A stretch of 64,000 nucleotides of DNA from Tubiluchus corallicola (Eukaryota; Priapulida; Priapulimorpha; Priapulimorphida; Tubiluchidae). The notes beneath the pieces were generated by a model. The model was given only the letters and a program-made list of their open reading frames with translations. It was not told the origin of the DNA and searched no databases. Made by a program: the position numbers and the translations under genes. Of this stretch, positions 3,001-55,900 are shown in pieces; the stretch's first letter is position 1; the number at the start of each line of letters is the position of its first letter. The stretch spans positions 310,001 through 374,000 of the forward strand of contig JAQGDQ010000079.1 of NCBI GenBank assembly GCA_030141605.1. Direction: 5' to 3'.

Positions 3001-4083
3001 TCCATTACCTAATTCTTCGTGTCGACCAGCCTCTTGTAAATTTACTACGGTCAAGTCCAATAAATCCGCGAATTTTTCTATTTCTTTAGCGTGCTCAGTT
3101 CGAATTGGCCTAAATCTTTCCAGTTCTTCTAATTGCAGCGCCACCTGTCGTCGACGACCGCCATATTTTCTATCTAATCTCTCTTTAGCAGCTTGGTATG
3201 CAACTGCCGAATGTCCCAAATTCTCAATGACCTTCAACGCCTCACCGGATAAATACTGTCTAAGTTGCAAAAGTTTATACTCTGCTGTCGCTGGCGCTGA
3301 ATCTATACAAGCACAAAACGCTGCTTTCCAATTTTCGTAGCTCTTTTTGTCTCCATTAAAAACCGGGATGGAAACTCTCTTTAATTGCCTCCACATATCA
3401 ACACCTATGGAAACGTCCTCATGCTGCACGGTAGCTGCTGTGTTGTACCGATCAGCTGGTTGATGGCGGGTCCATGATGTGTTGCTAAATTCTCGCTGCT
3501 CAGAATCGAAGTGAGCTTCCTCGTATAGTTCAGCTTTTACATTATAATGTTCAGTAGCAGACGTTGTAGGGATATCACTCCCGAGAGGTTTTGCAGGTGG
3601 CGTAGCCCATGGTGAATGCATGTTGTCAGATTCGATGTTTGCTGACGCCCTTGCTGTAGCAGTAGATCCGCCTCCATGTCCCAGTTTTAAGGTTTGCAGG
3701 TAGACCTGTGCTTTACTGTATACTGTCGCGTACTCGTCAGACAACTTCTCCAATTCGTCAATGACCTCGTCTATGCATTCTTCTATCTTTTGACCCCCTG
3801 TCTCATCTGTCAGGTAATTTTCCAGTAAATTCTCCACTACCGACATTGCTCTACTTTGCGCCTCGTCTATCTTATCAAATAAATCTAAAATGTTCTGACG
3901 TGTTTCCCATTCGTCCTGGTGGACTTCTTGACTGATTAATTGCAGTAGTTTATTTTTTAACTTCGTAAGTGCAGATTTGGCGCTAGCTTTTTCTGCTTTT
4001 AACTCCTGCCGACTAGTGTTGATAATTTTTGCGCTACGTACCCTATCGCTCTCCTTTCCAGCCGATTGTTGCTGCTGACTCAT
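1..4083 (-). CDS. BEL/Pao gag-pol polyprotein, partial (C-terminus beyond window)
   Basis: The frame opens at ATG 4083 (Met-Ser-Gln-rich start) and stays open to position 1. By eye: an N-terminal charged, coiled gag region (residues ~1-200); a gag core resembling the DUF1759 family of BEL/Pao elements (~220-400); a CCHC zinc knuckle of form CxxCxxxxHxxxxC near residues 480-495 (about 2600-2633); a retropepsin-like region with LLDDAST near residue 610 (about 2250); the reverse transcriptase with its YMDD box near residue 1026 (about 995-1006); and the RNase H-like/Pao-peptidase region with FVDAS near residue 1200. The family function is reverse transcription and integration of the element's own RNA. 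No frame break was found on reading every codon. Integrase is not in the window. Confidence 0.9.
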   Translation of the reverse strand, partial: MSQQQQSAGKESDRVRSAKIINTSRQELKAEKASAKSALTKLKNKLLQLISQEVHQDEWETRQNILDLFDKIDEAQSRAMSVVENLLENYLTDETGGQKIEECIDEVIDELEKLSDEYATVYSKAQVYLQTLKLGHGGGSTATARASANIESDNMHSPWATPPAKPLGSDIPTTSATEHYNVKAELYEEAHFDSEQREFSNTSWTRHQPADRYNTAATVQHEDVSIGVDMWRQLKRVSIPVFNGDKKSYENWKAAFCACIDSAPATAEYKLLQLRQYLSGEALKVIENLGHSAVAYQAAKERLDRKYGGRRRQVALQLEELERFRPIRTEHAKEIEKFADLLDLTVVNLQEAGRHEELGNGSLYAKLKKKMPESMLAQFQRWLFEKRRAENVISLREWIIREAEFYTIAHETVYGLGASNLDTKPKPRSYFGTTGDNQEAAVSRSSQSQRLCKVCNGPHGVWRCDEFRKMSIPQRWDSAKRLNLCYRCLGSDHQGQTCPRSRVCGIDSCKYNHNRFLHSSKEVRENNSHLAATNKNYSNAVGSTPSSIKPAAEDGSSHRSSTSTIPPDKQNSAVTMTSGNPKIVEKIMLRTIPIIVKNGNRKLTINALLDDASTRSYINSDVAAELGLEGETQQINVNVLNGQTKVFETRPVTFNLQSVNGQLDMKFSALTAERVTGNLNVINWNECSHKWDHLKAIEFPKLGRRLIVDMLIGSDYTDLHYSYRDVRGKPGEPIARLTPLGWTCIGQPNDCDSYRVRTNFVHTYFSAEASEIRLDEMLQQFWQIDSAGTMPSCRILDIGAENALAKVEKSMKMTDGHYEVCIPWKDNSVELPSAKLSYEKALKRLQSTEKRLLKNPEVAKIYEDNIQQYVKKGYIRQVTSLEDQQCGRWFLPHFPIIRPDRETTKVRMVFDSSEECDGVSLNDVISPGPKLQRDLFDVLLRFRKNPVALVSDIAEMYLMIKIVPEDRVYHRFLWRNFENRQPDQYEFERVVFGVNASPFLAQFVTRKHAEKFQLQYPMATETILYSTYMDDSMDSAIDDEQGIELYSQLSGLWEKAGMRARKWLSNSPVVLAEIPQEERASEINLDEGLLPSIKTLGVLWLAKEDVFTFKPKSMDIDNFLFTKRNILRKFATIFDPLGFLAAFLVRGKIIMQEMWTAGLGWDDELDENLQWKAKMWFTELIEMPEIHIPRCLVTEGGTDSCTLHTFVDASQEAYAAVSYLRCTYPDGTISCRLIAAKSRVAPLIAISIPRLEMMAAILGLRLTDHIAGALNMELKNAIFWCDSMNVLWWIRSRSRTLKPFIANRIGEIQSQTFPHQWRHVTSKENAADAVTRRKTANQLINDEKWWRGPKFLHKNEQEWPS

Positions 4084-4140
4084 GGCTATGGCGATACGAT
4101 GAAGTCAAATGAAACCCGATACATGTAGTACGACGAATAC

Positions 4141-20690: not shown

Positions 20691-22706
20691 TCAGTCTAAA
20701 CTCTGGGGACCAAAGCCGATCCAATGAGGTGGAAACTTGTATACAAACTCGAACCCAAGTCTCAATTGACGGGCTTCAGGTTTAAAATAGTTTGTAAAGT
20801 AAACCTTTTCACCTGGAGCGAGATACGATGCCCACCAACCAAAGCTGCCCATTGTCATAATTGAGTGATTACAGTGAGCTAAAACAGCTAGATCTTCTTC
20901 TGGGATGAAATTTCGGTCAGAATAGACAACATCATGTTTCGTATTTGGTATGTTTCTTTTGCACCAAGCGATATCGTCGCTGCAAACAACAAACACTGCA
21001 TCATCGTATTTTGAGCGATAATATGACATCGCTTTCGACAAATAACGTGCATCTGCTTCATATGCATGATTTTCTTTCACCCACTGCTGGTAATCACCTC
21101 GACGGACATGGACGCCGACATAAGTGACTGTTTTGCGACCTTGACTAGCATCTTCAAGAAACCTATGTGCTGTGTAAACATACAATTCCTTGAAGGTGAA
21201 TTCTCTGTGAATTTGGTCGCTTATGTGATTAAAATAGAACCATGAATTGAAGAAACCCCATATAACATTTATTGTATCATTTATCTGGAATAGTGACCTT
21301 TCAAATGGAACCTTTATCAGTAGTTGATGTCTCTTTTGTTTTGGGATTGAATAAGTTGGAGCAGAAATGTTAAAAGTATTTCCAACGATCATGTGAGGCT
21401 GAACGAATGGTTTACGATTGGTCACATTTGCGATTCCAAGCAATGTGGCATACTGGAACATTTGGTTGCCAATCTGACCGAGAGGAACAACCGTTAACCA
21501 GTTATTGTAGTTTTTAAGTTGTGGATATGTGGAGTCTGTTTTCTTTGGTGCTGCTGCATTATTTTCTTCAGAGTATCTAACCACTTGCAGTTTATGGAGA
21601 TTCTTTTGCACACTATCAGATTTTAAAGCCTGGTCAGCACGGCTGCTGGAATCCCTTTGCTGAATCAACCGCTCTTGAGTTTGTGACTTTTGCTCATATG
21701 GCACTGAATGGCTGCCATGGTTTTGCATTGGCCCATAATAATTTACAGCTGCATAATTCTGAAATGTGTCCGTATGTGGATTATTATTACTAGGAAGAAT
21801 GAGATTCTGGTAAGAGACAACAGAGTTTTTCAATACTGAGCTTTTCTGTGATGGCAGTGAATGACTTGTGTCTCTGCTCCGAGATCTGTCATACTTGTAG
21901 TCGTTGAGTTTGTACTGGCCATTTATTTCCGGGATTTGATTGTTGCTTAGCTGCCCAAGAACGTGCGAAACTTTTGTATCTTCAAAAAAATTGTTTGCAA
22001 ATTGTCTAGATGTTTGTTGACGTGGAAGATGTCGTTCCCATACATCTGCTGCTGCAGAACTTCTCAACTGCATTTCAAGATTATTCTCTTTCCCAACAGC
22101 TCTTCTGTAATTGGAAGTTCCCTGTGGCAAACTGCTTGACCCACGATATGCTATTTGTCCATTGTTTTGTTGTGCATAAAAGGATTTGGAATTGTGTTGC
22201 CAGTTTTGTTGTTGGCTAGAAGGTTGTTTTTGGTTATGCTGGTCCTGCAGTTTATATGGAGCAGAACGCTGTACATTTGTCTCGCCTTGTTCAGGAGGGT
22301 CCTTTTGTAGAACCATTCGAGGCAATGAGGCCGCAGCATTCTGATCTTGGAACACGTTTGACTGTTTAAATGTTCCATACTGTCTCTTAGTATTAAGATC
22401 GATGTTGTTACTTACCATACTTGGCGAGTCGTAATTCTGACGTAGTTGACTAGTTTGTTTGTTTTCCCGTAAATTTCCAGTTAGCAATTCATTTTTTCTG
22501 CTATCGATTAATGTATTTTGTTCTAATGCATAAGGAACCACTTGCTGATGATGATACCCGTAATTTATGGGGCTGTATTGCGGGTATTCTGAATGTTTTG
22601 AATTAAAATGTAAACTCGGGGCTGAGTCGACTTTAGTTTGGTTGCTCATCGTTATTTGCCCCAGGAAAGCGAACACAAAGATAGCGCGAGTTTTTTTTAA
22701 ACACAT
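20691..22706 (-). CDS. Galactoside alpha-1,2-fucosyltransferase, GT11 family, long stem
   Basis: Intronless 671-residue frame. The C-terminal ~270 residues are a GT11 (FUT1/FUT2-type) catalytic domain: GQIGNQMFQYA at 410-420, HVRRGDY at 533-539, CSDDIAWC at 575-582 and MTMGSFGWWASYL at 617-629, the motifs that bind GDP-fucose in this family. The expected reaction is transfer of fucose from GDP-fucose to terminal galactose (alpha-1,2) in the Golgi lumen. The N-terminus (MCLKK then AIFVFAFLGQITM) looks like a short signal anchor, with cytosolic N-terminus and lumenal enzyme, but the hydrophobic stretch is only about 13-15 residues. Residues ~30-395 are a Gln/Asn/Ser-rich low-complexity stem, far longer than the usual few dozen residues. 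Acceptor specificity cannot be read from sequence. Invertebrate FUT1/2-like genes are often intronless multi-copy families. Confidence 0.9.
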   Translation of the reverse strand: MCLKKTRAIFVFAFLGQITMSNQTKVDSAPSLHFNSKHSEYPQYSPINYGYHHQQVVPYALEQNTLIDSRKNELLTGNLRENKQTSQLRQNYDSPSMVSNNIDLNTKRQYGTFKQSNVFQDQNAAASLPRMVLQKDPPEQGETNVQRSAPYKLQDQHNQKQPSSQQQNWQHNSKSFYAQQNNGQIAYRGSSSLPQGTSNYRRAVGKENNLEMQLRSSAAADVWERHLPRQQTSRQFANNFFEDTKVSHVLGQLSNNQIPEINGQYKLNDYKYDRSRSRDTSHSLPSQKSSVLKNSVVSYQNLILPSNNNPHTDTFQNYAAVNYYGPMQNHGSHSVPYEQKSQTQERLIQQRDSSSRADQALKSDSVQKNLHKLQVVRYSEENNAAAPKKTDSTYPQLKNYNNWLTVVPLGQIGNQMFQYATLLGIANVTNRKPFVQPHMIVGNTFNISAPTYSIPKQKRHQLLIKVPFERSLFQINDTINVIWGFFNSWFYFNHISDQIHREFTFKELYVYTAHRFLEDASQGRKTVTYVGVHVRRGDYQQWVKENHAYEADARYLSKAMSYYRSKYDDAVFVVCSDDIAWCKRNIPNTKHDVVYSDRNFIPEEDLAVLAHCNHSIMTMGSFGWWASYLAPGEKVYFTNYFKPEARQLRLGFEFVYKFPPHWIGFGPQSLD

Positions 22707-25700
22707 CTTTTCGCTGACCGTCTAGATTAGATTAAAATCGGCGTACACTAATTACATGGCACCATAACAAATCGATGCTGGCAGAGTTAGCCTTTGTCGC
22801 ATATTGTAATGCAAACTGAAGTAGCCAAATATTGCGTTATACACGAGTCAAAAAGAAATTATTTCGTACCTACTAAGTTCCTATTTTCACTGTTACACCA
22901 GCGTAACTATACCCTGTCTACTGGAACATGGCATTTTCGTTTAGACAGGTTTGCTGATATATTTAGGTCAGTAACCTACCCTACAGTATTTCGATAAAGG
23001 CAATAGTGTTGGCTTTCATAGTTAGATGCCCGCTAAATTTAAACTGAACACAGTATTTTCGTTTTTAAGTATAAATTTCATTTTAAATTTAAGAAGCACA
23101 TATTTGCAATGAATTGTTTGTTGCTGTCATCACGTACTTATAGGAAACTATAATACAAATTAAATTGTTTGCAGTCGCCACTGCACTCTGTTCTATGTTC
23201 CCACTTATTAAGTTATGTTATGGGCTAATTTTATTTGTTTATTAATGCGTTAGATATGGGAATTTATCATACAACCAATTGTATCACGCTCGCAACGTTT
23301 AATGGTTAATTCGTTATTATGCTTCATTCACTTGTACTTTTCTTTTTCTCCTCTTTCTCGCGTCTTTTCTCTCCCACTTTCCCCAATAAATTAGTAATTT
23401 TTTGAGTTTTCCTTTCTCCCACTCTTGTTTCTTTTGTTTTCTCTCTCGATTCTTTCTCTTATTTTATTTATTTTTTGTCAGTTATTTATGGTTTTTGAGG
23501 GTCTGACTAAGGAGTCATCATTCCCAAAAAAATTGAAGACATTGTATTCACCACCTGGCCAAAAAGTAATAAGTTTGACTGTGTATTTTGAAGTAAAAGT
23601 ATCTACGTAGGTTCATCTCCCGTTCTCTTCCTCTCCCTTTAATTCTTTCTCAATATAACATTTTTTCCCTTTCTCCCTCTCACTCTGTCAATCCTCTACA
23701 GTGACCTGCCATTTACAGTCTGCATTATAACAAACATTTTCAGTCGTGCATTGCCCATCAAGGAAAAGTGCATGTGAAAACAAAAATAAAAATGAGGCTT
23801 TGCACACTCTGCATGTAAAAGGTTTTGGAGTAACCTCAGTCCTTGCGAATGAGTAAACCATTCGCTTTTTCAGTGCTGAAGTTTGCTTTTTAATACAAAA
23901 TCTGAAGTGCAAAGAATTTGCATTGTGATGCAAATGTAAACCATTTTAAATTCTAAAAAAAGTGAATGAATGAAGTAAAAAATTACATGTACTTACGTTA
24001 TCAATTTTTATTCACTATGTGATGTTTCTAAATTAAATAGATGTTATAGCATGTGATTTGCCTAGTATAATATTATGATAGTTTTTTTAATAACCAAAAT
24101 GCCAACTTGAACATTGTAAAAAATTATATTTTAAATCTGAATGTGATGAGAGTCTATTCCACTTGGCGATATCTTCTTTTTCGTGCTGTAAATAGCTCGA
24201 TATGTCAAGTTAATTTTCGACAACTGTCAAGCTGAAAGGAACTACAGCAGTACAGCTTGCCCAACATTGACTGTGAGCAACCCCTTTTTTCATTACACCA
24301 GAATTTTTTTTGCAAATACAGAATCTATTGACATCAACCAATGTAACCACTCTTCATTCACATGCCCTTGCCAATCATGCCAGCACACATCTCGTCAGTG
24401 CAGTATCGGGTTTTAAATCATTCTAAATATCTGAAAACACAGCTAAATGATAAATAGCAGCACCTAGCGACACACTACTCGAAATCTTAACTATAGTTAC
24501 AATGAAAATAACCTGTATTATGCTATGCTTTTGCCAAAGAGTTCCTAAGTGTGATAATATTAACTTAATCATAAACTAACAAAAATATCCTAAGATAACA
24601 TCTGCTACAGAGCAATTTTTTATCAAGTTGGCTTGCCTCAAGCAGGATGTCACACCAATTGCACATAAAAGTATTATAACTTATCTTTAGAAGTCACACT
24701 GATGTATAATATTATGATGTTCACAGTCACACCCCTTTGATATAATGGTTTTTGCTTTTTTCGCTTTTCAGGTATAAAAAATGTACAATTTGTTCAGTGA
24801 CATTGAAAAAAATTACTGTACGTTTCCTTTGCCAAGCAATAATCAAGTGAAACTACAAAACAATATTTTATACTTGTAGGACTGCCTTCCTATTTTTGGA
24901 AAGCAATCAAAGTTTATTGAATTCTGTCAGCTAAATGATTAAAGTATAACATAAGCATATTGTACACGCATCAAAAAAGTATTAGAAATTTTTAAGATAC
25001 TGTTAAATTACTTTACAATACTGTTAAATTAGAATTGCGTTTACAGTATTTAAGCAATAATCAACTGTGAAACATGTAACAATAAAAGTGAAAGATTTTT
25101 GACATGACTATGTGCAATGTGCTAGTTAATCTTGCACCAGAAACAGCTCTGTATATAGTTTTCAAAATGAGCAGATACATAAAAAAAGAAACCGAGGCTA
25201 AAAAAGGAAATCGATATCACGGCTAGCTCGCAATCCCAATTGTTCTAGTCAAAATTTTAGCCTCTGCCAATTTTTTAGCCATTTTTGTGTTACATTAGTC
25301 ACGGTATAATGAAAGCAGGTTAAGGTGCAGAGGTATTATTTTGCCAAGAATTTAGTTACTTGATATTTCCTTTAGCCATTCTGACTAAGCCTTAGTTTTT
25401 GGCTAAACATTATGGAAGGCCACGGTAAATAGGCCCCGAATGTGCATAGCCCTTTTATGCAAATTGAAACTAATTTAATTTTGAACAAGAAGTACAAAGG
25501 TTACTTGCCAAATTGATTAATTGATACATATAACTTATGATACGTGAAACCAGAATTCACAGAGTTCTGCACAAAAATAAAATGGACAACATGTATTCAT
25601 GAGCAGTTTAATACGTTCAGCTTTAGCAAACAAGATGATTATGGTCATATAGTTCCCAAATAGCATGTTTTTAATACATGCAACACATTTTATAACACAG

Positions 25701-25835: not shown

Positions 25836-28956
<3,121 letters not shown>

Positions 28957-30872: not shown

Positions 30873-33800
30873 ATGTCTGCCGGGCCACTTACCACACACG
30901 TCTTAGACACTGCAAGAGGAAAGCCAGCTGCACACATTGAGATAGAGTTGCATCGAATGTCTGGTCCTGGAATATGGAGCTTTCTAAATTCTGGGTACAC
31001 CAGCTATTTCTAAAATGTTTCATGGTGGCTGTAGTTTCTTGACATTTACTAAAGACTGGTGACTATGCCCTGTCCAAGGAGTGTTATACCATTTTCCTTA
31101 TGCACCTTAAGCCCCCAGGCTGGAATTTGTAAGGTAAACTTGGCATGTGTACAGGCATCAAGGATATTACCGAAACTGAAATTTATGAAAAAAAGGAAAC
31201 CGCACTGAAACCAAACCGAAATAATTTTTGCAACAGCAACTACTGGCTTTTCAACTACTTTTGCAAAACCAACTACCATCAAAACTGAAAAAATTCTGAA
31301 ATAAATAAAATACTTTATTCTGTTTGTTTGCTTTTATTTGCTCTGATACAAATTGATGAAGTAGCTAGGTGTTGTGGAGAAGGCTAGTATTCATTAGAAC
31401 TGAATGGAAAATTGTAGAATGTTCTATAGTATAGTAGAACAATCTTTTTACCTTGTAGAAGCAATCGTAGATTCTAGAACTTTCTATACGCGATGCGCGT
31501 AGTAGTTTCTAGATTGTTCTGGTGTTTCCATTTGTATTGATATATAAGGCAGAGCTGGCCACTCAAGTTTATTCTCAGATACGCACACTCTCACTTACAT
31601 GTTTCCAGATTATCACTTGACTGTACATATTTTGAGTTCCTTCATACTTTGTGTTATGGAATTCTCACACAATAAACCTATTTAATTTGACAACGTGTTT
31701 TCTGGTTTTCTCTACGAGCCGTCTGAGAGAAAGAAACACAACATTAGGTAAAAAATCTTAACCAGAAACCAAATAAGTAGAAATATGTTTATGGTTAAAA
31801 ATCATGATGCTTTAAAAAAATTGACAAATTTTATTTTGTTTCCTATATTTCATAAATTATAAAATTAAACTTGGTTTTATTCAAATTGTGCTTTGATATT
31901 TCGGTTTATTGTGCCTGGAGGCCTTAAAGCTTCACAGCTGTGATGAGCGGACCATGATCCTGTGGACCGGATCAGACCAAGATCGGCAAGGTTTTTTGCT
32001 GATCAGATCGGATCGGATCAGATTGCAAATGTACTATTGAACATAATGATTTATGCGGACCAGATGTGGATCAAATATTTGGTGGATCAGATCTTTGCAG
32101 ATTTTAATTTTCATTAATGTTTCTCCGCACTATTTGGCAGTGTTTGCATTGCGGGGAAAAAATGACAGACGGACACTCATCGCAAGCTACCAGGTTGAAT
32201 AACAGTTAAATGAAAATAATAATTAGCTTCATTAATCATTAAATGAACATACTACTGTACTAGCAGTAGTAGCAGCAGCAGCAATAGTAAAATCTGTTAA
32301 AAATACTAATGCTAAAATATTAAAATAACATCAGATAGAGAATATTCTTATATTCCTTCCTGCAGTTGCAATTAGTCAATGAAAATCAAACTACCCAGTT
32401 GATACACTGCAACTGGGTGCAATTGCCACTGATTTATAATATTTTTGTTTATTTAAACCAAGGGCAGCAAAAAATGCAAATTATTGTGCGGATCAGAAAC
32501 CTTGCAGATCAGGACAGATCGCGGATTAGAATTAATTTATATTAGCGGTTGCAGATCGCTGTTAATAGCAAAATGCAGATTTTTAGTAGCCAGTAGATTT
32601 CATCTTGGTAGACCAATTTGTTGCAGATCAGGAAATTAGTCGATCTGCTCAACCCTGCTTCACAATGATCAGCACTGAAGATATGCCACATTGCCATGAA
32701 AAGCATGCTATAAATAATACAAAAGGTTAAATAAACAATACTTTAGTTTTATTTGAAGTTTTAACATCTATGGGAAACGAAAGGTAAGCTGGTTAAATAC
32801 TACTAAACCTCGGAGAATTGTTACCGAAAATTATGGAAAGTTTCGGCTATGGAACAATAAATTTCGACTAAAACGAAACTGAACCGAAAGTGCAATTATT
32901 GACAAAGCAAAATGACATTTTCGTTTCAGTAACATACATGACGGGCATGAAAATTTTTGCTGGTATGTGCTTGGTATCAGAAAATTGATGTATAATTAAG
33001 CCACTAAAGACATTGAATATGAAAATAAATTACTTGAATCCCTTCAAAGAGAAAATTTAATAAGTTCTTCAAACCACACACAGATAGCCATACTAGTTTC
33101 GCCACAATGTGATTTATAGAATATAGGGAGTGCTGCATTTGTAGGCCGAGGTGTTCGCGCATGGTGCAGCATGTTTTGCAGCTTGGATAAGACCAATATA
33201 ATTATTATTGTTCACAAGTCCCGTGCAGTGTCCTCACCTACACATATTCCTTTTGCCCTCCATCAGTCACAATTTGGAACACACTTCCAGCCAAAGCAAT
33301 AAACACTAACTCCTCATACATTCCTGACACTAAAGCCACCTTCCCACATGGGAAGATTTCAAATTACACAAGGTGCACATATATATCCACACTCGGCAGG
33401 CCTCTATTCTTTTATAATATTGGTTATAATATGCGGGTCATGCACAATTCCAATTTAGCTTTTAGAATTAACGATTAAAGAGCAGCTTTTGTTACAATGT
33501 TACATTTTTCATTACATTATATTTTATATGCTTTCTGTTTAGCTTCTTTACAACTGCTAGCCTTGTCATATTTACAAAGTATCAATTGCTACTATTGTAA
33601 TTTTGCAATTGACTCCGAATTTTCTGTTTTTTACAGGAAAACTAATGCTGATGGAAGGTTACCTGGCTTGCTAGCAGATGGAGCCTTAATTCCTGGTATC
33701 TATAAACTCAAATTTGACACGGCTGGCTATTTCAAGTCAATTGGAACACAAGGATTTTATCCTTATGTTGAAGTAATTGAACGTATTCTATCTAGTATCT

Positions 33801-35399
33801 TAAAATTTAAAAAAATGATTAACACTGTATGAAATTGACCATTAAGTGATCGTGTTAATCCTTATAAGCATAGTAGATTTGATGAATTTATTCATTGGTG
33901 AAATTTGGTTTTCAGTACAAAATGCAGCGTAGATGCAATGAAAGTTCCAAGTCTGGGGAATGGGAACCTTAACGCTGTCAAGCAGCGCCTATTGTCCGTT
34001 ATTGTGTGAATCTGTTATCTGTTCACAATTTACATTTTAAAACATTTGATCTCTTGGGGTATAGACTTGAGATTTTTGGTGTGGGATAACTTTTGAACAA
34101 AATAATGGCCATTATCATAGTTCATCCAGAAAGGGGTAAACGGGCATAAGCCTCAAGAGATGCACAGTGGGAAGATCTGAGTCAGCTCAATGCAAAGATT
34201 TAGAGTGGCCTGTCACCTATTGACAATTCACCATTGATAGAAAATATATTATCACCCCCCACCCCCAAAGCAGTTCCTGGATTTGAACATTTGCATTTAC
34301 AATGTCATAAAGGCAGTTTTTGTCCTACATAATGTAAAGTGTTATTTATAAATTATCTATAAGTATGACAGCATTTAGATACTGCTCTTGCTATGTCTTA
34401 TCATCCCTTCTAGTCCCCCGGTGATGGGAATAGTGGGAGAATTTGAGTCACGCAGTAGCTCAATATTAGGAATTAGAGTGCATTGACAATTCAACACTGA
34501 CAAAAATATATTAATCTCCTACCACAGGAAGGGTGGATCCAGAATTCTAACAATTGTAACAATAGTGTTATAAAGATAGGTTTAAAATTTGAAGGTTTTG
34601 CAAAATTTCAAGTGTAAATGTTAGGTTCTGGGCAATTGCCCAGGTCAATGATCCACCTCAAAGGAAGCAGGAGGAATGATGCAAGATGGTAGATATAGTG
34701 TGAGAATCTGAATCAGCTCAATGATCTGTCACCTGTATAATCCTGTTACAACAAAAATGCTTTATCTCCTCACTATCCAGGGATGGGGAGGGAAGATCCA
34801 GGAGTCGAATAATTATAACTGTAGTTTTATGAAGGTAGGTTTTGTGTGCAAAATGTCAAGTGTAAACGCTAGACAGTTTGTTAGAACTTTTGCAAGGGCC
34901 TAGGATAAAGGTAAAAATTGCCAAAAGTGCCAGCTGTACAAAACTTGCTGTATGAATTTTAGACGTCAAAAATGTTTGAACCCTGTTTATCCAGGAGGCA
35001 CCACTGGGAAATTAGTTCTGTTTGTATACCTTAATTGCCTTTGGGAATTTGTGAACCAAATTTAGCTAAAATGATCTTATGTTAAAAGACAATATCCTCA
35101 AGTCAAAAGTGAGTGTCAGGGAACCTACAGCATTATTGATGCTCTGATTAAGTAAACATTAACATCGCTATTATTATACTTAGTTTTGCAACATTTAAAA
35201 TGTCTTGAAAGTTTAGAAACATTGTAAATATTGTGCCTATGCAGTTATTATATGTAATTGCAATAGCTAAAAGGTTCATAGCATTTTAATACATTTTTGG
35301 TTTTTCTAGGTGGTGTTTGAGATTGAGGAATCCAGTCAACATTACCATGTTCCATTACTTCTAAACCCTTATGGTTACAGTACTTACAGAGGAAGTTAG
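30873..35399 (+). CDS. 5-hydroxyisourate hydrolase (transthyretin-like), complete
   Basis: Three exons, 30873-30994, 33637-33772 and 35310-35399, give 115 residues with matching phases and GT-AG borders. The product begins MSAGPLTTHVLD and ends with YRGS, the C-terminal tetrapeptide that separates HIU hydrolases from thyroid-hormone-binding transthyretin. Catalytic residues are in place: His9, Arg48 and His99 (in HYHVPLLL), plus the YRGS terminus. The enzyme hydrolyses 5-hydroxyisourate from urate oxidase to OHCU in purine breakdown, as a homotetramer. No N-terminal peroxisomal PTS2 or C-terminal PTS1 is evident, so cytosolic location is inferred. The start follows an acceptor-like CTTTTAAG, so an untranslated first exon may exist. 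Intron 1 (2.6 kb) and intron 2 (1.5 kb) are full of repeats. Confidence 0.93.
31370..31743 (+). mobile_element. Solo LTR in intron 1 of the HIU hydrolase gene
   Basis: A 374-bp block begins TGTTGTG and ends CACAACA, a 7-base inverted terminus of LTR type. Inside, in order: TATATAAG at 31541-31548 and AATAAA at 31671-31676. Flanks are CTAGG on the left and TTAGG on the right, a 5-bp target duplication with one change. No coding sequence or second LTR is adjacent, as after LTR-LTR recombination. It reads in the same direction as the host gene. Confidence 0.72.
31929..32664. mobile_element. hAT-like non-autonomous element, GATC-rich
   Basis: Perfect 8-bp direct repeats GCTTCACA at 31929-31936 and 32657-32664 flank a 720-bp element. 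An 8-bp duplication is the hAT (or P) hallmark. The ends are imperfect inverted repeats sharing TGAGC(G/A)GA, and both flanking regions are rich in GATCAGATC-type motifs. No transposase frame. It lies in intron 1 of the hydrolase gene, about 190 bp after the solo LTR. Confidence 0.68.
34130..34905 (+). repeat. Three degenerate ~265-bp tandem repeats in HIU hydrolase intron 2
   Basis: Recognisable anchors recur at 34169, 34435 and 34700: AATCTGAGTCAGCTCAATG-like, then CTGTCACCT, AATATATTA/ATCTCC, GGGGAGGAAGATCCAGGA and TTATAAAGGTAGGTTTT, then TCAAGTGTAAA. The spacing is 265-266 bases. The copies are strongly diverged, so the array is old. Confidence 0.7.
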
Positions 35400-36019: not shown

Positions 36020-36528
<509 letters not shown>

Positions 36529-36764
36529 AATTGTTTGCTACATATTAACAGCAGGAAATTAAAATCTGTAACTCATACTTGGACAGTTGTGTTCATTGCA
36601 TGATTTTGTCTGCAGGTCATTTCATCATTCTTACCTTTGAGATCCTTCTTGCTGCTTATGCTCACAGGGGGCATAATAAATTCTGTCAGCTCTATTTTTT
36701 ACGCTGTACCTGGTATTCCAACTAAAGACAGCATCAAAGCATTAGGGCCTATGTCTGCTCTATC

Positions 36765-40390: not shown

Positions 40391-42874
40391 GTGAGCTAAA
40401 TTCTATTTATTTTATTAATTTATCATTTTTATAATAAAGGTTTCATTATAGTCAGCGGGCCCAACAAATACTTTTCAGAATGACTACCAAGCCGAGGTAG
40501 ACTTCAGCCAGTAGAAGAATTACTTTTGACTGATTTGTGTAAATAATAACAAATATTGACTATTGCGAATTGACTTGTTATTTTTTCGAATCGGCACCGC
40601 ATAAGTATGATTTAAAATAATTTTTTCAAAACTTTGAATTATCAAAATTGCGGGTGAATTTCGTAATTTGTGAGTGTGCCTAAGGCATTAGATCGGGAGC
40701 TAAATTGTATGTCTTTTTGTTCACGGCGTTAATTGTAACAACCTCTAGGATAGCTTTTGTTTGTAGCTTCTTTTCTTTTTTGTCTTAATGAAATGGTTGT
40801 CGATGTAAAAGTCAAGTAAGTCAAAGTTACATATGGAAAAAAATAAAAAAATGTATGTATTCCCGTGGGACAATTCTCTTGTGTTTTGCATGCGGTGCAC
40901 ATTTTGTTTTTCTCCTTTCAACCTTGTTAGTGTAACACCAGAATATTAATTTCCGTAGGTTTCGTTTAGTAGCAACTTTAAAGTGTAACTTTTTGAGTTA
41001 AAACGTGTTAAAAGTTGACAAATTATAGGTAAGTACAGTATAGGCAAAATTATTTGATTTTTTAGTTCCCGTGGAGGTTCGTGTCCGGGATCGGCTCTAT
41101 AAGTAGTATGACGCCTTAGGCAAAAGGCTGCTTTCTCAAATGTCAACCCATTCTACACGGTCCCCATTTGAAATTGAATTTTTGCTGTATACAGTAAATT
41201 ATAATGGTGCCCGTGTGGTCTTATGCATGTGCTATACATGTGTTATACATATACGTGTGCTAATTAACTGTAGTCAATTTCCTATCAACGGCTTGTGTTG
41301 ATTCCATTTGAAATTTGAGGAGCAACAAAAATTTCTTCAGTTTCTGTTGCACAGTCTTAAGTACATGCTGTTGGCTAGATTGTCACTCGCCTTTTCATCA
41401 AAAATTTTTTGAACCAGTAACTCCTGTCTTAATATACATTCATTTCACTAGTTTCATTATCTTCATAACCACCACTCTGGTGAAGGTTGCAAATATTTTT
41501 CATAGTGAACATTTTTGCTACTTAATAATGAATTTCAAGCTCTCTAGACTATATATACAATATATATCCTGGATAAGCATATGTCGTTTATTTTAGAATG
41601 TGAAGCAGATTTTCATACTGATTTTCTAGCATATTTACAGTAGTGATGCTATTTTATTTTTAAAGTATCATGCATAATTAGACCCTTTCCAAGAATTGCC
41701 GGACAACTCGCCGTGGTACTCATTTCATACTATAAAATTCTCACATAAAATCTTTGCCTACGTCTTTGCTGGCGAAGGAAGTGCCGGTTTAACCAACGCA
41801 ATTATTTTGGTTAATTTTTATTTTTCAATCCAAAGCGTAAAATTTCGAACAAGTATAGGGTTATCCCAAGAAAATTGGTTTTGTTTATAGTTAAATGCCA
41901 CTCTCAGTAGCATTTCCGATTTGTGAGATTTTCAGCATTCATCAATTTCTAAAATAACACGTCACTTGCTGCAAAAACGCTTTGCGCCATTTACATAAAA
42001 TCAGTTTTCTTACATGAAGGAAAAATCTTAACTGTTATGTTAATAATGCTACTTTCAAAACGAAGTTTCATTTAAAGTTAGCATTGAAATTTCACTAACC
42101 TGGTTTAAGACCTAGTATATATAAATAGGCCTATAGTTAATGAGTTATAGCATCTCACAGTGCTTTTTGAGAGATTCAGTGCACTTCAACCTATGAAACT
42201 GTTAAAAGTTTGATTTCATCATGCTACAAAACTTTCTCGCCATTCTTGAAGAGACAAAACGATCGAAAAGTTAATTGAAATTTACCTCCTTATTCGTTCA
42301 GACAGGATACCGAAATACTTATTATTACATTATTACTCAATTATTACAATTAAAAAGCTTGTCTTTGATTAGTCTCTTTATAATAAGTAACAACTGTGCA
42401 GCGTAAGTAACTAAGGATAAGTTTGTTCAAATTTTATCATTTGTCAATTAGCTTCGTAGAAATTGAGCATTACCTGCTTATCTAAAATAACAACAGCTTG
42501 ATAGAATCTGTTTATTTGTTCGTTTAGTTTTGGCTATGGCCAGCTTCGTAAAACATACATTCACATTTGGTTTTACATTTCTGAATGATAAAAAAACGTA
42601 CGTGTAAAATTCGGTTGCAGTCGTGTAGTCTCAGTCTCACGTTGTCAGGTGAATAACAATGCTAGCTACTGATTGTCTTGCAAACCTTTTGGTTAATTCT
42701 AAATTATGTGAGATAAAGGCTCATAACTAATGACCTATGTTAGTTAATATAATTTGTTTCATGAGATGAAATTTCATGAGATGAATATTTTCCTGATGCA
42801 ATTTTTTATATTGTCACACTAGCAGAAATTTTGTTTTCTGACACCGATTTTTTACATTTTAGAAAGAACTGAAG

Positions 42875-43384
42875 ATGACCGATTCCCAGGTGCTGTTGTC
42901 TCTTCTGTCCTTGACTCTTCTTTGCGTAGTAGCAACTGCGTTGAGTGATAGCGACCACGATGAATTCCCGTTAATTTACAAGGCAATGATTTCTAAAGAA
43001 ACTGACAATGCGGAACAAGCAGATGATTTTAGAGTAGAGGACAATGATTTAATCAAAGACAGTTTCTTAAACGAAGACAATATCGAAAAAGAGAAGTTGA
43101 AGCGTGGTTTTGGCAACAAGAGAGGTTATTTTAATAAGCGTGGTTTTGGAAACAAACGTGGTTATTTCAACAAACGAGGCTTCGGTAACAAGAGGGGTTT
43201 CTTCAATAAAAGGTTAACGCCTAGTGAAGAAGAAATACTCGATACCGCTGCATTAATGAGCAATTTTGATGATCAATATTTGAACGACTTGGAAAACCTA
43301 CCTGTTGAAGCAAGAGGCTTCTTCAACAAAAGGGGCTTTGGAAATAAGCGAGGGTTTGGAAACAAGCGAGGATTTGGAAATTAA
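42875..43384 (+). CDS. Achatin-like neuropeptide precursor (GFGN/GYFN/GFFN tetrapeptides)
   Basis: A 169-residue prepropeptide. Residues 1-22 form a signal peptide (VLLSLLSLTLLCVVATA). An acidic spacer (23-75) precedes the first Lys-Arg. Ten tetrapeptides follow: GFGN at 78, 90, 102, 154, 160 and 166; GYFN at 84 and 96; GFFN at 108 and 148. Copies are separated by Lys-Arg, except the second block, which starts after a single Arg (147), and the last copy, which ends at the stop. An acidic 34-residue spacer (114-147) splits the blocks. No Gly lies before the cleavage sites, so the peptides should have free C-termini. Molluscan achatin is GFAD, with a D-Phe second residue in the active form; Gly-aromatic-x-Asp/Asn fits that family, but here every copy ends in Asn. 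Secreted after prohormone convertase cleavage. An acceptor-like TTTTAG 13 bases before the ATG suggests a 5' UTR intron. Confidence 0.88.
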   Translation: MTDSQVLLSLLSLTLLCVVATALSDSDHDEFPLIYKAMISKETDNAEQADDFRVEDNDLIKDSFLNEDNIEKEKLKRGFGNKRGYFNKRGFGNKRGYFNKRGFGNKRGFFNKRLTPSEEEILDTAALMSNFDDQYLNDLENLPVEARGFFNKRGFGNKRGFGNKRGFGN

Positions 43385-47694: not shown

Positions 47695-50600
47695 TCACAT
47701 GTCATTTGGATCGATGACATCCTTGTACCAGTTTGGTGCTCTGTCGGCTCTGTCTACAGACATGGTTTGCATCACTGAAATAAAAACAAAATTCCGTATA
47801 TCTGTGACAGCCGGCCAATATATTTACATAGAAAAACTATTCTATTTTTAGCAAACTGCCAAATGAAACGAGCTCGTTGATTATTAGCTCCAACGAGTTA
47901 AAGCTGCATTGTACTTGCTAATAATTAATTAATAATAATTGTTGCCAAAGTTGCTAGCAATGTGTTTTCCTCCTACATGTAATACAAATCATAGGTTTGC
48001 TTTTAATGCTTCCTTCCCAATCATATTGAATGAACCAATGGATTTCAATAGACAATGGCAATATATACTTGATAAATATTTAAAAAATAACCCAGATATG
48101 CGATATATCAATCATGAGATGCATTAATTAGTAACAAAACTAAAACTTACACACGCCTCTGTTTGGGTGTGGCATTCCTTCCAAAAATGGATTTGGTGGT
48201 AGTGCTTGCCGTGGGTCTTGATGTCTGTAGTAACCATCATCAAATGACTGTCGATGTCTGATGTCCAACTGATCAATAGGATTGTACTGATATCCATCAT
48301 CTACAGCTATACGTTGCTCTCTTGGCAGTGCTCTGGGATTCACAACTCCCATTCCCATTGGATCTCGTGGTGGTCTGAAACTTCTGTCATCATACTGAGC
48401 GTACTGATCATCCATATATTCACGTGGTATCCTTTGCCCACGTGGTGGAAGGTTGACTCGATCTAAGCTACCATAATTGTCTTTTTGTCGAGGAGGACGT
48501 CGCCCACCTCGGCTACTTTGGTAGTCATCAGTGGAGTCAGTACTACCATGTCGCACATCTCCGAGCAATTCCCGTCTTAGCATTTCTGTAGTTCTATCAG
48601 CTGCAGTGGTATCCAACTTGTCAATGTTGTCTAAAATTTCTTTAGCTTTAAATTCTGCAAGTGGTGGTCCTTGAGGAAGTTTTGCATTATCCAGGTTGAG
48701 GTCTGGTTTTGACAGTGGAAACTTAATGTTATCCAGTCTACCTAAGCTGGAGACACTGGATGCTCGCTCCCGTCTATTATTGATGAACGATCGATGTCTG
48801 GAGAGGAAGTTGTCCACATCATTATTGGCATCATTACCTTCACCATCACTTTGGGAAATCGAAAGACAGTATTCAGAATAACGTCAAAATAAAGTCAGAA
48901 TAACCTTTTTATTTAACAGAACTGAATCTAATAGCCCAAGATATCCACATCTACTCTATAACAGTTAGTCAACCACTAAATGTAATATACTCGCCTAAAT
49001 TAATAATGATGATTGACCGCAAAATAACCTATGAAGATTTATGATTTCACTTGACAAAGAACCGAGTATTGTGCACATTGTGCCCCATAAAATCCAATGT
49101 TATGAATAAGTTTATTTGCAAGACTTTTAAGATAATCAACTATTCCGGTTGCTGGAAAAAACAGTGAAGAATTCCAGTCTTGATAATGTGTAGAATATGC
49201 AGTTAGAATATACCATTTAAAAAAACAAAAAATAGACAAAATGCTTACAAATCAACGGCACAAAACTTAAGAAACAGTACCTAAGTAAGTCATCTTCTAA
49301 TTCTTCATCAGGCAATGCTTCATCCTGTAAGGCTTTGTGAAGATCCTCTATTCGTCGCTGTGCGAGTTTCAGTTCATTTGACAGTTGCTCTTGTTTTTCA
49401 TTGGCAGCTTCTAATGCAGTTTCTGCATCACGTTGCTTTTGTTGGGCTTCCGTTTCTTTGCGAACAACAGCACTGTGTTGGTCTCTGGCAATAGAACACG
49501 TATAACATGATGAAAAATAGGTGGTGCTCTGCAAGCTGTTTTAAAGCTATCTAATTTAAATATTGCACAAGTTTATTGAAAACTTCTATTGTGCAAGGCG
49601 ATCATTATGCAAATTGCACATGCAGTAACACAAGCAATTTTTGACATGAGTATTTAAACCTTTATACATATATATAAAAGTCTGCACTTCATATTAAAAG
49701 CGTTTCATAGTCTTGATTTAGCTAGACGGGAGTAAAACGAATTACTTTAGTTCTTGAAGCTGCGACTGAAGTTCGTCTATTTCCGTCTGAAGTTTTGTTT
49801 TTGCTGACTTCAATTCTGCGGCGTGTTCTTCTTGTTGTTTTTCTATATTTTCGTTTAATCTGCTAATTGTTTGCTGTAAAATAGTTACTTAGCGATTAAT
49901 AAAAGCAATCGAAAACAACTACTAACCACAAAAAGGCGACACACTTGTGCCAATTATTTTGGTGATGGTGGCGACCAGCATTAATGACGAGAATACCAAG
50001 AATTACGAGTTTGTCATCGACAAAAATTTAGGCCTATGATATCGCGCAACCATAGTGACATAGAATAACAGCAATTATGATAATATTTGTGATTTAACAA
50101 AAAGGTGATATGATACTAAAGAGAACAATGCTGATTACAATGATGATCACAAGTACAAATAGGACAACTGTGACAAACCGATGACATCAATTAGAATGGG
50201 CAAAATTAATGGCAACAATGCAAAAACTGTCAGATATTAATAAAAATCATTGATAATAGTCTATACCTCCATCTTGGCCTTAGTACTCATAGCATTTTCT
50301 AGCTGCCCTTCTGCCATAGCTATCTGGTCTTCCAGCTGCCTTACAACCATCTTGTTAACCATGACTGCTTCCATATCAGCCATTTTGTTTTTCATTTCTA
50401 TGACTGCTTGCTTCAATTCTGAATTATGCTGATGTAGATCATTCATTCGGGCCATTTGAGTTCTGGAAGCTTCTTTCTCCTGTGCTAGTTGTGTTGTAAG
50501 AATTTTAAGCTTTTTTGTAAAATCATCAATGTCCTCATTTGCTTCTTCAAGCCTGGATTCTGCTGACTTGTTTTCCCTAGTTAGAGCAGACACTTTATCT

Positions 50601-52883
50601 TCAGCCTATAATAATAGATGAGAAACTACATGTGTATGTTACAACTGAAGCAAAAATACAAACAAATCCAACAGCTAATTTAGAAGAATAGGCAGCATGC
50701 TGCAAGAATCCTAACGATGCAGGTATTGCATTCGCATTTTAAGGTCACTTGTGGACTGCACAATCCAAAACTAAAAAAAACATTCAAGTAGAAGAGAAGA
50801 GCTCAAACCTGCCGCTTTTCTCGCGTGAGTTCCTCCAGTTGATGCTGTAGTTCTTCCATTTCGTGCTCTAAAGTGGAATTTGTTTTCTGTAGAAGGGTTT
50901 TGGCAAATTCGGCTTCATCCAACTGCAAACGAAATTGTCACAACTCACAATAAAAAATTAATAGTTATTATAGCGTGAAGGTTTGCCTTCTATAAACTAT
51001 ATGCACAAGTACGTAGTAGTATATATGCAAGTGGAAGTAAGTCTCGAAATTGTTACATAACTGAAAACTTGATCCACAGTAGGCCATAAAAGCGAAGTCC
51101 AGCGCACCATGTCATACAATATATACTATTAAAATAATTAGAAGGACCAGTTTTTTTAAGGTCTGAAGTAGCAATTAATGTAATACAGATGGCAACGTCT
51201 TTTGTCACTCATTATTACAATTTAACATCTAGCAGTTGTGTTAAACTAAGGATAGCGCATGTGGGTTAAAAGTTTAGAAATGACAGACTAGCTACTTACG
51301 TAGATGATATTAAAAATATAAAATCAAATGACACTTCCTGCGAAGAACCAACCTACCAAAAGTGCACCCTACTCTTGTAGCAGTATGCTAATCAAACAGA
51401 ACAATACTATGTCTCAGATACTTAAGTTGTTATCCACACATTTGTAGTGCATGTAAAATAATTTCTTGCCTGTTTCTTTAGTAGCTTAACTTGATCGCGT
51501 TTCGGCTCTTTTTCTTGAGTGTGGGAAACCACAGCTTGAGAATCTTTCAGCAAGGCGCGAACTCGACGCAACTCACGTCTCAGTTTCTTCTCTTTTGCAA
51601 CGTCCACTTTTGGGACCTGTATGAAATGCACCAAATACAAAAAATATAATTGAAACTGTAAAAGGCTAACAACAATTAAAACAATGTTAACTGATAAAAC
51701 TTAATCAATTCAGATAAAAAACAATAATCTTTTCTTTTCCTGTCTTGTAGGTTTACGAACGATCGTACGACTCAGTATCCCATTCAAAAGTAGCAAAACA
51801 TCACTTCTTCAGTTATTGTAACTTAAAGTAGTTTAAAACAGTTATTTGTGGCTTAACTATCTTGCTACCTTTATGCAACTTTACCATTTAGTTTAAGCAC
51901 GCTTAGCTTATTTATCTGTCTTACTTACCTTGCTAAGTTTAGTGCTTAGCTCTTCTACTGTAGCGACTAATTGTTGCTGTTCTTTGGCCATCTTTTGCTT
52001 TTCTTCTTGTTTCTCTTCCAGTTGATTCTCAAGATCCCTGATCTGAAAATTTTCAAGAGAAAAACCGAATTTACTCACACTTTTTATCCGCTGCATAGGG
52101 GAGAAGTCATATGTGATTTTTTTCGCCATCATTTCATTGTTAGGCATCCATTTTCCACTTTTAAATTCTTGTTAACTCGTTAACGAAGAGGGCTAGTGTC
52201 AGAGGTACCTGGGGTAGTAGGGGCCGCAAAAGTAGTGTGGTAAACGGTGACCTCAGTTAATGGGTCAAACGCACTAGGCATTGTGAAGTATTCTTACTGC
52301 CTTTCAACTCCTGCTAAGGCTTTGTGTTAAATTCAAAATTTTTTCTTAGGTATTTTGGAAATGTGTACTTAAACTTTTAAAAAGCTGGGATTATTTAAGG
52401 GCACAAGACAGGAGCCAAAATGTGAAAATAATGCATCCAACTTTATTGAGCTATTGTGGGGGTAGATGTGTACCAGGACTTTAAAAAGCTGGGCTTTTTA
52501 AGGGCCCAAATAGGAGTTGCAGGACACTCCCCTGGGATAGGTGCTCAGACTATAGCGCAGAATGTAGAGTGAAAACTAGGATTGTTTAAAGGTCCGAGAG
52601 AGGAGCCAAAATGTAAAAATTGGAGCAAATGGCATTGTCCCTCAAATCGTAGCATTCAATAACTCAAAAAAACTATGGTAGGCAGAATCGCGCCATTCAA
52701 AATTGCAGGATAGACAGGCATTTAGATACAGTGGGTAGATGTGCACCTGTGGACGTAAAAAAAGTTTTAGTGTGATTATACACAGAAATTTTATATATGT
52801 TTTTACGAGGTCGTCGATTTTCGCACACATTCTGTGGATTTTGTGAAATCCTGCACGCACACGCACGCACACACACACGCACA

Positions 52884-52939
<56 letters not shown>

Positions 52940-55900
52940 AATTTAAGAGCAGCGCGAACTCCAAGGAAACTTAATGTTAGGCATCAAGCACAGAGTATGT
53001 ATCAAATATTGGAGGTTTGTTGTAATTAAGCATCTAATTGTATCTAAGCCGCATTAGGCCAAACATACTTAAGTGATAAGCACATTGTCATCTTCGAATT
53101 GGAATTGTTTAAGGGCCCGAGGTAGGAGTCGAAACAGAGATAGCAACCAAAATTACGGCATTGTTGTTCAATCACACATGAGTAAACCGCATAGGATTAG
53201 GAACACTCACGTGATAATTAGTTGTGAGTACAGTGCACGCAGGCTAGTCGCATTTAAGCTTAATAATTTACAAGTACTGACAAGAGTTAACCGCACTCGA
53301 CCAGGTATAGTCGGATATAAATATGATCACAGCGTTGCGTTCGTGAATTTGGATCTGAATTCATTCAGCCTTGTTAACACTGTGGCTTAATAAGCAATAC
53401 ACATGTAAATTTTGAAAAAAAGTGAATGATTACAATATGTGTAACACATTTAACAAGTGCAATTCTGTGTTCGTAATGTCATAGCAAGGTTTGTTGTCAG
53501 CAAGACATTTAAGAATTCTACGTAAATGTTTTAGAGGTCTATAGGTATTTACCTGATTTACGAATTTGCTTTTAATGGAATCAATTTCCTGTTCCCTGGT
53601 ATCTAACTCGCGCCTGAGTTCTTGCCTGAGTGCTTCATTTGTATCTTCAAGTTTCATTTTATTCTGTAAGATCACCGGACAATATTTGTTAGACAAAAAA
53701 AATGTATAGACAACAAATTAATAGCGTAAAATAAAGTTATTGGCATTGGCAGTTTCTTAAAATCAATAGCAGAACATTAATATTTTATTAGTCAACGTTC
53801 TTACAACAGTTTATTAGGAAACTTTTCACCTGTTGGAGCTGATCAATCATGTGCATTTTGTCGTGTAGATCTTCCAACTGTTCTTCCAGTGTTGCTTGTA
53901 TGTGTTGCTTTTCTCTCCTGGCTTTCATTAACTGCAATTATTTATCAGTTCATTCTGTGATAACTTAATTGAATTTTCATTTCTTATGATTTACTTTAGG
54001 TGAACCGGGTTTTGGAGTGGAAAGGTAAAGCAAGAATAATTTAACTGTGGTAATAACTAATCACTGGCAGATTCCATGCTGCCTCTACAGTCAAGAATTC
54101 CGTAGGAAAAAGCTCTGAGGAAATATATAAATATGGAACTGTTTTAGGTGTACAAACTTTATTCAAGTCAGTAATCTACAATCTAAGTTCATGTACGTTT
54201 ATTACGCTTATTAGTTCTTCACTCACAATTAGCAAGACATTTTTTGTATTTCGGTTTTGGTTGACGAATTAACGGTAAGGCTTACTTAACGGTTATGATA
54301 GGACTGAAACACTAGGATGATAACACTTTCAAGGATGATGCTCTAAGATGAGACGCAGAAGTTTCCTAGCAAACCTTGAAATCTTCGGAGCTTATACATC
54401 CTCCTTCTACAAGGCAAAATAAACCAGGGCAAAGTAGTAGGTGAAATCACCTAGAGTTATTATTTTTCTGGCAGTCACTCATTTATTTACGCAGTACACG
54501 GCAATTAACACATAGAACATAATTGCAACATAAGAGCTGCGCCCACATCGCAGATATTTTAAAGTAATCTGCATGGCTTCAGGAAGAAACTTATGTTACC
54601 TCCATCTCATCTGATTTATCATAACTGGCTTCCTCTAGTTCAGTTATTTGTGATTTGAGTCGGCGGATGTTATCTCCTAGGCTCGCGTTCTCTGTGGATA
54701 AATCCTGTAAATTCAGTGTACAGAGTTAAATTGCTTAAACCCAAACAACCACATGAAAAAAAAATGAACAAGAAACTGTGTGCAACCTGCTAAACAGCGG
54801 GTGAAAGAAAATAAGCCGGCAGCTGGTTATAAATAACTGCGTGAACAGGAACAGAGTGCACCCGGGAAAGTTGCACAAGTTTAAAATAGTAGAAACTGAC
54901 GCGAAAAACTGGAAAACCAGAAACACAGATCAGGTTTTCATGTCTTTTAAATTCTCGATGTGCGCATTATTGTCGGGTCTCTTTAACACTGAGAAGAAAT
55001 TGTAGTCGAAAAAAGCTGTCATATTCAGCAGTAATTCAGCATTCACAGACATATAGGCTCCATTTTGCGGATTTCTGCCAAACTAGCTTGCAAAAGCATG
55101 CCCGACACGGTGAACAAATTAATGCTTATTAATTATTTAGAAACAAACAAAAGTATTACTTAAAAAATGATAAAAACAAATTAAGCATTTTATTTAATTT
55201 AATTGATTTTATGGTTTAACCTAGTCTAGTAGTTCACTACGTATTGCATTATTAAAACTGCACTTTCCACTTAATTCATTTTACAACATTGAAAACTATA
55301 TTTTTATTAACGCTTAAACTATAAAACAAAAACTGAACAGCACGTAAACGCACAAAATTATATACATCGTGTGGTACATAAAAATGTGCCGTAGTTCAGA
55401 CTACAAGAATATTAGAAGCAAGTTACAGTTTTTAAGTTATAGCTAAAAAACTGGTACTTGTTAAAAAATAAATGCTGGAACATTGTCAGCTAATCATCGA
55501 TTGAAAAATAGCCGCGTTTGCGTATCAATGCATGACAGTAAAACAATAAAGAAATCAACACCATGGTTCTCACCATATAGACAAAGCACTGATAAAGATT
55601 TGTAATAAAAAAATAGGATTTAATCCTCTGCCATAGGGTATCTGGAATTCGTTAAAGAGAGTGTACAATGGCTATACAGAGCTGTTTGATGCTGAAGAAC
55701 TAGAAGCAAAAATTGATGAGTGCTGGGACCAAATACCCGTTAAAGAAATGAGCAACTGTGCCTGTTGTTGGAAGAAACGTTTTCCCACAGTGAAAGGTTT
55801 CTAGTTTACAGTGAAAATGGTGACACACAGAGCACTCGCCGTCAATTTTAACAATAGTGACACACAAAATTTTTCCGATATTTTTTCACATGTTGATTTA

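Follow-up and report, generated by a model that had tools for sequence, protein, structure and literature searches.

An intact gene on the forward strand of the 64,000-nucleotide stretch of DNA analysed here (the window; GC content 35.5%) very probably encodes an achatin-type neuropeptide precursor. Considered jointly, the evidence is best explained by a precursor of ten free-acid tetrapeptides, which would carry a D residue at position 2 and act through an achatin-type G-protein-coupled receptor. Reading of the open reading frame (ORF) bore out the coordinates and the ten peptides listed in an earlier note on this DNA. The leader, the acidic spacers, the tetrapeptides bounded by basic sites, and the identity of GFGN with a published achatin (PMC6188537) make an achatin-type precursor, as that note had proposed, the best reading of the locus.

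Organization of the precursor gene

The following features were assigned in and around the gene:

42649 (+), position of the GT in a donor-like CAG/GTGAAT, a candidate from a donor scan
42838..42862 (+), pyrimidine-rich tract with TTTTAG at its end, probably the 3' splice site of a 5' UTR intron
42875..43384 (+), ORF of the achatin-type precursor, 169 amino acids plus stop, one exon, from ORF reading
42875..42943 (+), probable signal peptide spanning roughly residues 1-23 (cleavage plus or minus one or two residues), from hydropathy
42944..43105 (+), acidic N-terminal propeptide with Lys-Arg at its end, from net charge
43106..43207 (+), first peptide block: GFGN, GYFN, GFGN, GYFN, GFGN, GFFN, with Lys-Arg between them
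43214..43315 (+), acidic spacer of 34 residues with Ala-Arg at its end, a single basic residue ahead of the next peptide
43316..43381 (+), second peptide block: GFFN, GFGN, GFGN, GFGN, with Lys-Arg between them, the last ended by the stop codon
43655..43660 (+), first AATAAA past the stop codon, about 270 bases downstream, tentatively assigned

From the ATG at 42875, the frame runs intact through 169 codons to the TAA at 43382-43384. A hydropathy scan of the leader gave a best 15-residue mean of 2.75, beginning at residue 6, and the net charge is -10 across precursor residues 24-76 and -8 for the 34-residue spacer between the two peptide blocks. By hydropathy and charge, the product thus has the signal-peptide-like leader and the secreted-precursor layout with acidic spacers that are a feature of achatin-type family members. 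The TTTTAG-ending tract lies 12 bases upstream of the ATG, and the splice-like signals would fit a 5' untranslated region interrupted by an intron, with the coding exon downstream of it. Further AATAAA motifs are found at 43715 and 43916, and a TATA-like stretch, TATATATAAATAGG, was noticed at 42116-42129 (+), about 750 bases upstream of the start codon.

The codon score of the precursor ORF, 0.10 per codon, exceeds those of all seven presumed non-coding ORFs and lies below those of four of the five presumed coding ones, the score having been trained on two other ORFs of the window and the sorting into coding and non-coding being our own. The gene is single-copy: in a search of its own genome (343,548,820 bases in 2344 contigs; seven candidates scored), the only match at E<=0.001 was the precursor itself.

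Ten tetrapeptides, probably under selection

The precursor contains six copies of GFGN and two each of GYFN and GFFN. The earlier note had all ten released by Lys-Arg sites, which is right for most of the copies: Lys-Arg precedes nine of the ten and follows nine of the ten, while one copy is preceded by Ala-Arg and the last one ends at the stop codon. All ten fit G-[FY]-[GF]-N and so belong to the multi-copy, free-acid Gly-aromatic-X-(Asp/Asn) peptides with basic bounds that characterize the family; six of the ten, the GFGN copies, are identical to a published achatin. Asp at position 4, the mark of an Asp-ending achatin subgroup of molluscs and an annelid, is absent, with Asn in ten of ten copies; the achatin family as a whole is not defined by it. 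We also considered a gene for amidated peptides and rejected it, there being no Gly ahead of the basic sites. The calculated [M+H]+ values are 394.172 for GFGN, 484.219 for GFFN, and 500.214 for GYFN.

A chance repeat was likewise rejected. The motif [KR]R-G-x-x-[N/D]-[KR]R has eight matches when the window is read in all six frames, every one at the precursor locus, versus none in 100 simulated first-order Markov windows; mononucleotide shuffles of the window gave one match summed over 50. At the DNA level, a pattern spanning two adjacent units matched six times in the window, all at the precursor, and not once in 100 dinucleotide-preserving shuffles.

Adjacent 18-base units of the array have 10 to 16 of 18 bases in common. 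Pairwise comparison of the ten units (45 pairs) gave an uncorrected, saturated pS of 0.96 and a pN of 0.155, for a ratio of 0.16, which is descriptive since the pairs are not independent. Gly1 is spelled by four codons and Asn4 by two, and neither changes its amino acid across the ten copies; inside the tetrapeptide, amino-acid variation is limited to position 2 (F/Y) and position 3 (G/F). Non-silent steps also fall in the pair of codons that precedes each peptide, owing to the Ala-Arg unit and to paths between alternative Arg codons. Because the units have diverged in DNA, with much of the divergence silent and Gly1 and Asn4 invariant, the array suggests a tetrapeptide, Asn included, long held by selection and not a fresh duplication.

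Relationship to published achatins

The Asn form of achatin is published and widespread. GFGN has been reported as the achatin of the acorn worm Saccoglossus kowalevskii and the lancelet Branchiostoma floridae, of the priapulids Priapulus caudatus and Halicryptus spinulosus, and of xenacoelomorphs, namely two Xenoturbella species and two nemertodermatids; the same source suggests a possible ancestral status for GFGN and gives the tetrapeptide as the usual length of bilaterian achatins (PMC6188537). For Saccoglossus, the record XM_002732101.2 is named in PMC10508912. The peptide found here in six of ten copies is identical to those of all these animals (PMC6188537). The surprise that a whole precursor should end its peptides in Asn, voiced in the earlier note, is therefore misplaced, because GFGN was already in print as achatin for several phyla (PMC6188537). 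Nor does the molluscan and spiralian frame of that note hold up: the achatins of molluscs and an annelid that we compared (GFAD, GFFD, GYFD, GFWD, GFGD, and GYGD) all end in Asp. Achatins are also known from nemerteans (PMC8557429).

GYFN and GFFN are what sets this precursor apart. The predicted xenacoelomorph ligands share GFGN with it, while GYFN and GFFN are absent from the main text of PMC6188537. The closest parallels that we compared come from Aplysia, as GFFD and GYFD. Both are presumably products of the Aplysia achatin-like precursor. The same origin is implied by PMC11277431 and PMC4721866; relative to the peptides described there, GFFN and GYFN match at three of four positions, with an aromatic residue at position 2, but the Aplysia peptides have Asp at position 4, and a GFGx form is not mentioned in the parts of these papers drawn on here. 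Platynereis achatin, GFGD, shows Gly-Phe-Gly-X as in GFGN, but again with Asp at position 4 (PMC5747525). The mollusc achatins GFAD, GFWD, GFGD, and GYGD share Gly-aromatic-X with the present peptides and differ in their Asp at position 4, and GYGD has Tyr at position 2, as in GYFN (PMC6523705, PMC4200219, PMC5996578).

Since Gly-Tyr peptides are thus known from the mollusc and annelid set, a Gly-Tyr form is not new as such, and the idea that Gly-Tyr-Phe-Asn is unusual keeps only a small novelty: in open-licence main texts, GYFN and GFFN were not found alongside achatin or GFGN. The mix of GFGN, GYFN, and GFFN may be unreported, which we put forward weakly because supplements, the usual place of precursor sequences, and texts that name GYFN or GFFN without achatin-related terms lie outside this search.

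Alternative readings of the locus

Four-residue motifs are short, and family membership here rests on motif and precursor layout. The gene might accordingly be a lineage-specific one for multi-copy short peptides, which had become achatin-like by convergence, stayed in the L form throughout, and acted on a different receptor. Acoel MxGFG peptides give some substance to this idea, as they share GFG with achatins yet are not counted among them (PMC6188537). On the other hand, six of the ten peptides are exactly the GFGN that recurs across several phyla, none of the ten tetrapeptides carries an amidation Gly, their length is the usual one for bilaterian achatins (PMC6188537), and the GYF and GFF cores have parallels in Aplysia (PMC11277431). 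We consider convergence improbable.

We give still less credence to a secreted structural or glandular protein made of glycine/phenylalanine repeats, or to a decayed copy, in place of a peptide precursor, and regard this as very improbable indeed. Such a mistake has a precedent in the brachiopod "achatin", later judged to be a glycine-rich non-neuropeptide that had been clustered with achatins mistakenly (PMC8557429), and the codon score of the ORF is modest. However, basic sites bound the units and acidic spacers accompany them, neither Gly1 nor Asn4 varies among the ten copies despite saturated silent sites, and the intact ORF speaks against decay. An achatin-type neuropeptide precursor thus remains the reading that we prefer.

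Proposed maturation and receptors

For such a precursor, the leader would take the product into the secretory pathway, and the sites themselves point to prohormone convertases, which would cleave after the Lys-Arg pairs and after a lone Arg, and to a carboxypeptidase, which would trim the basic residues. The predicted products are the ten tetrapeptides as free acids, in the three versions GFGN, GYFN, and GFFN. By analogy with relatives, a peptide isomerase probably turns the Phe or Tyr at position 2 to the D form, and the D-peptides would act as a neuromodulator through an achatin-type G-protein-coupled receptor.

A D-amino acid is described as conserved in achatin-type peptides of protostomes and deuterostomes (review PMC5818035), and in two Aplysia circuits GdFFD alone was active (PMC4721866). 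In Aplysia extracts, GFFD analogues are isomerised at position 2 when that residue is Phe, Tyr, Trp, or Leu, but not when it is Ala, Ser, Asp, or Lys (PMC11277431). Because Phe and Tyr are among the residues converted (PMC11277431), the Phe and Tyr forms of the present precursor are plausible isomerase substrates, although the Aplysia analogues tested end in Asp, not Asn.

On the receptor side, the achatin receptor of Platynereis is activated by the D form and not by the L form (PMC5747525). Achatin receptors have also been identified in Saccoglossus (review PMC5818035), whose ligand is GFGN (PMC6188537), so an achatin receptor that accepts Asn should exist. The achatin receptors of Platynereis and Saccoglossus are placed close to those for vasopressin, CCAP, GnRH, and corazonin (PMC5818035, PMC6188537). 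The two questions raised in the earlier note, whether position 2 is converted and whether the receptor tolerates Asn, are largely answered at the level of the family. For Xenoturbella, achatin precursors and no achatin receptor are reported in PMC6188537, and several achatin receptor paralogues in the X. bocki genome paper (PMC11521371); finding the ligand in an animal is not always accompanied by finding its receptor.

A search of the precursor's own genome for rhodopsin-type receptors, with 147 of 1297 candidates scored, yielded at least 164 matches at E<=1e-10. A receptor motif filter was passed by 25 of the 30 retrieved loci; many of the 30 look aminergic, and this first sort assigned none of them as an achatin receptor. 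A receptor set of this size is only compatible with the proposed mechanism. Many of the rhodopsin-type receptors were seen in single open frames, some of them clustered (seven of the listed matches share contig C1518), so that receptor genes without introns seem to be numerous in this genome.

We also envisaged that one gene yields three non-redundant Asn achatins, that isomerase or receptor paralogues would discriminate between them, and that the ratio of 6:2:2 would form a graded signal mixture. This extension of the achatin reading is speculative and, in our estimate, unlikely.

Database searches and genomic surroundings

The precursor matched no Pfam family and no PDB chain. Plasmid and bacterial/archaeal genome collections, which are not meant for animals, gave no match, and neither did viral contigs, either by DNA pattern or by protein (0 of 12 candidate stretches). 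The DNA pattern used in the viral and bacterial/archaeal searches recovers the window itself six times. The empty viral, bacterial/archaeal, and plasmid searches argue solely against a microbial origin. No Rfam family was found in the window, and mitochondrial COX1 had no match in the precursor's own genome. A made-up FMRFamide tandem query, chosen as a trochozoan marker, gave eight weak matches there (36-48% identity); an FMRFamide array was lacking at the matched loci examined (2 of 8) under our own filter, which could miss spacer-bearing precursors. This hints weakly that the animal is neither a mollusc nor an annelid.

The neighbours of the precursor (PRMT1, a family 11 glycosyltransferase, a member of the transthyretin family, and a BEL/Pao element) point to an animal source and to no narrower group. 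Judged by where the Asn form occurs in the few papers compared, a hemichordate, cephalochordate, priapulid, or xenacoelomorph is a likelier source than a mollusc. X. bocki itself was rejected, its published genome having 43% GC and a span of 111 Mb (PMC11521371), against 35.5% GC in the window and a genome of 343.5 Mb here. At 1-4104 (-), an ORF of 1368 residues that reaches the window edge matches Pao-type peptidase A17, DUF1759, and DUF1758 (Pfam), with a reverse-transcriptase match below the cut-off; judged by these domains, it is a BEL/Pao-type retroelement. A 676-residue ORF at 20694-22721 (-) has a family 11 glycosyltransferase domain in its C-terminal part and a Gln/Asn-rich N-terminal stretch. 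The PRMT1-like arginine methyltransferase lies in a single open frame of 386 residues, stop to stop, at 25839-26996 (-); compared with the PDB, it is of the animal PRMT1 type, and it may be either a gene without introns or a retrocopy of some age whose frame has stayed open. An exon-like match to the HIUase/transthyretin family (Pfam) was seen at 33479-33829 (+).

A long low-complexity tract at 36063-36600, which translates into Leu/Ser repeats on one strand and Arg/Glu repeats on the other, is to all appearances a simple-sequence region and not a gene. Several coiled-coil-like exon ORFs occupy 48143-53717 (-). We take them to resemble a myosin tail, with class XVIII suspected. They matched no Pfam family at the cut-off, and one piece compared with the PDB matched no chain. 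A second Pfam batch of ten ORFs of the window also returned no family.

Implications for the achatin family

With this precursor, the Asn branch of the achatins gains a further gene. The precursor supplies natural variants at position 2, where the conversion from L to D takes place, and at position 3 beside it. Here the GFF and GYF cores, otherwise met with Asp in Aplysia, stand with Asn, which bears on the suggestion that GFGN may be the ancestral achatin (PMC6188537).
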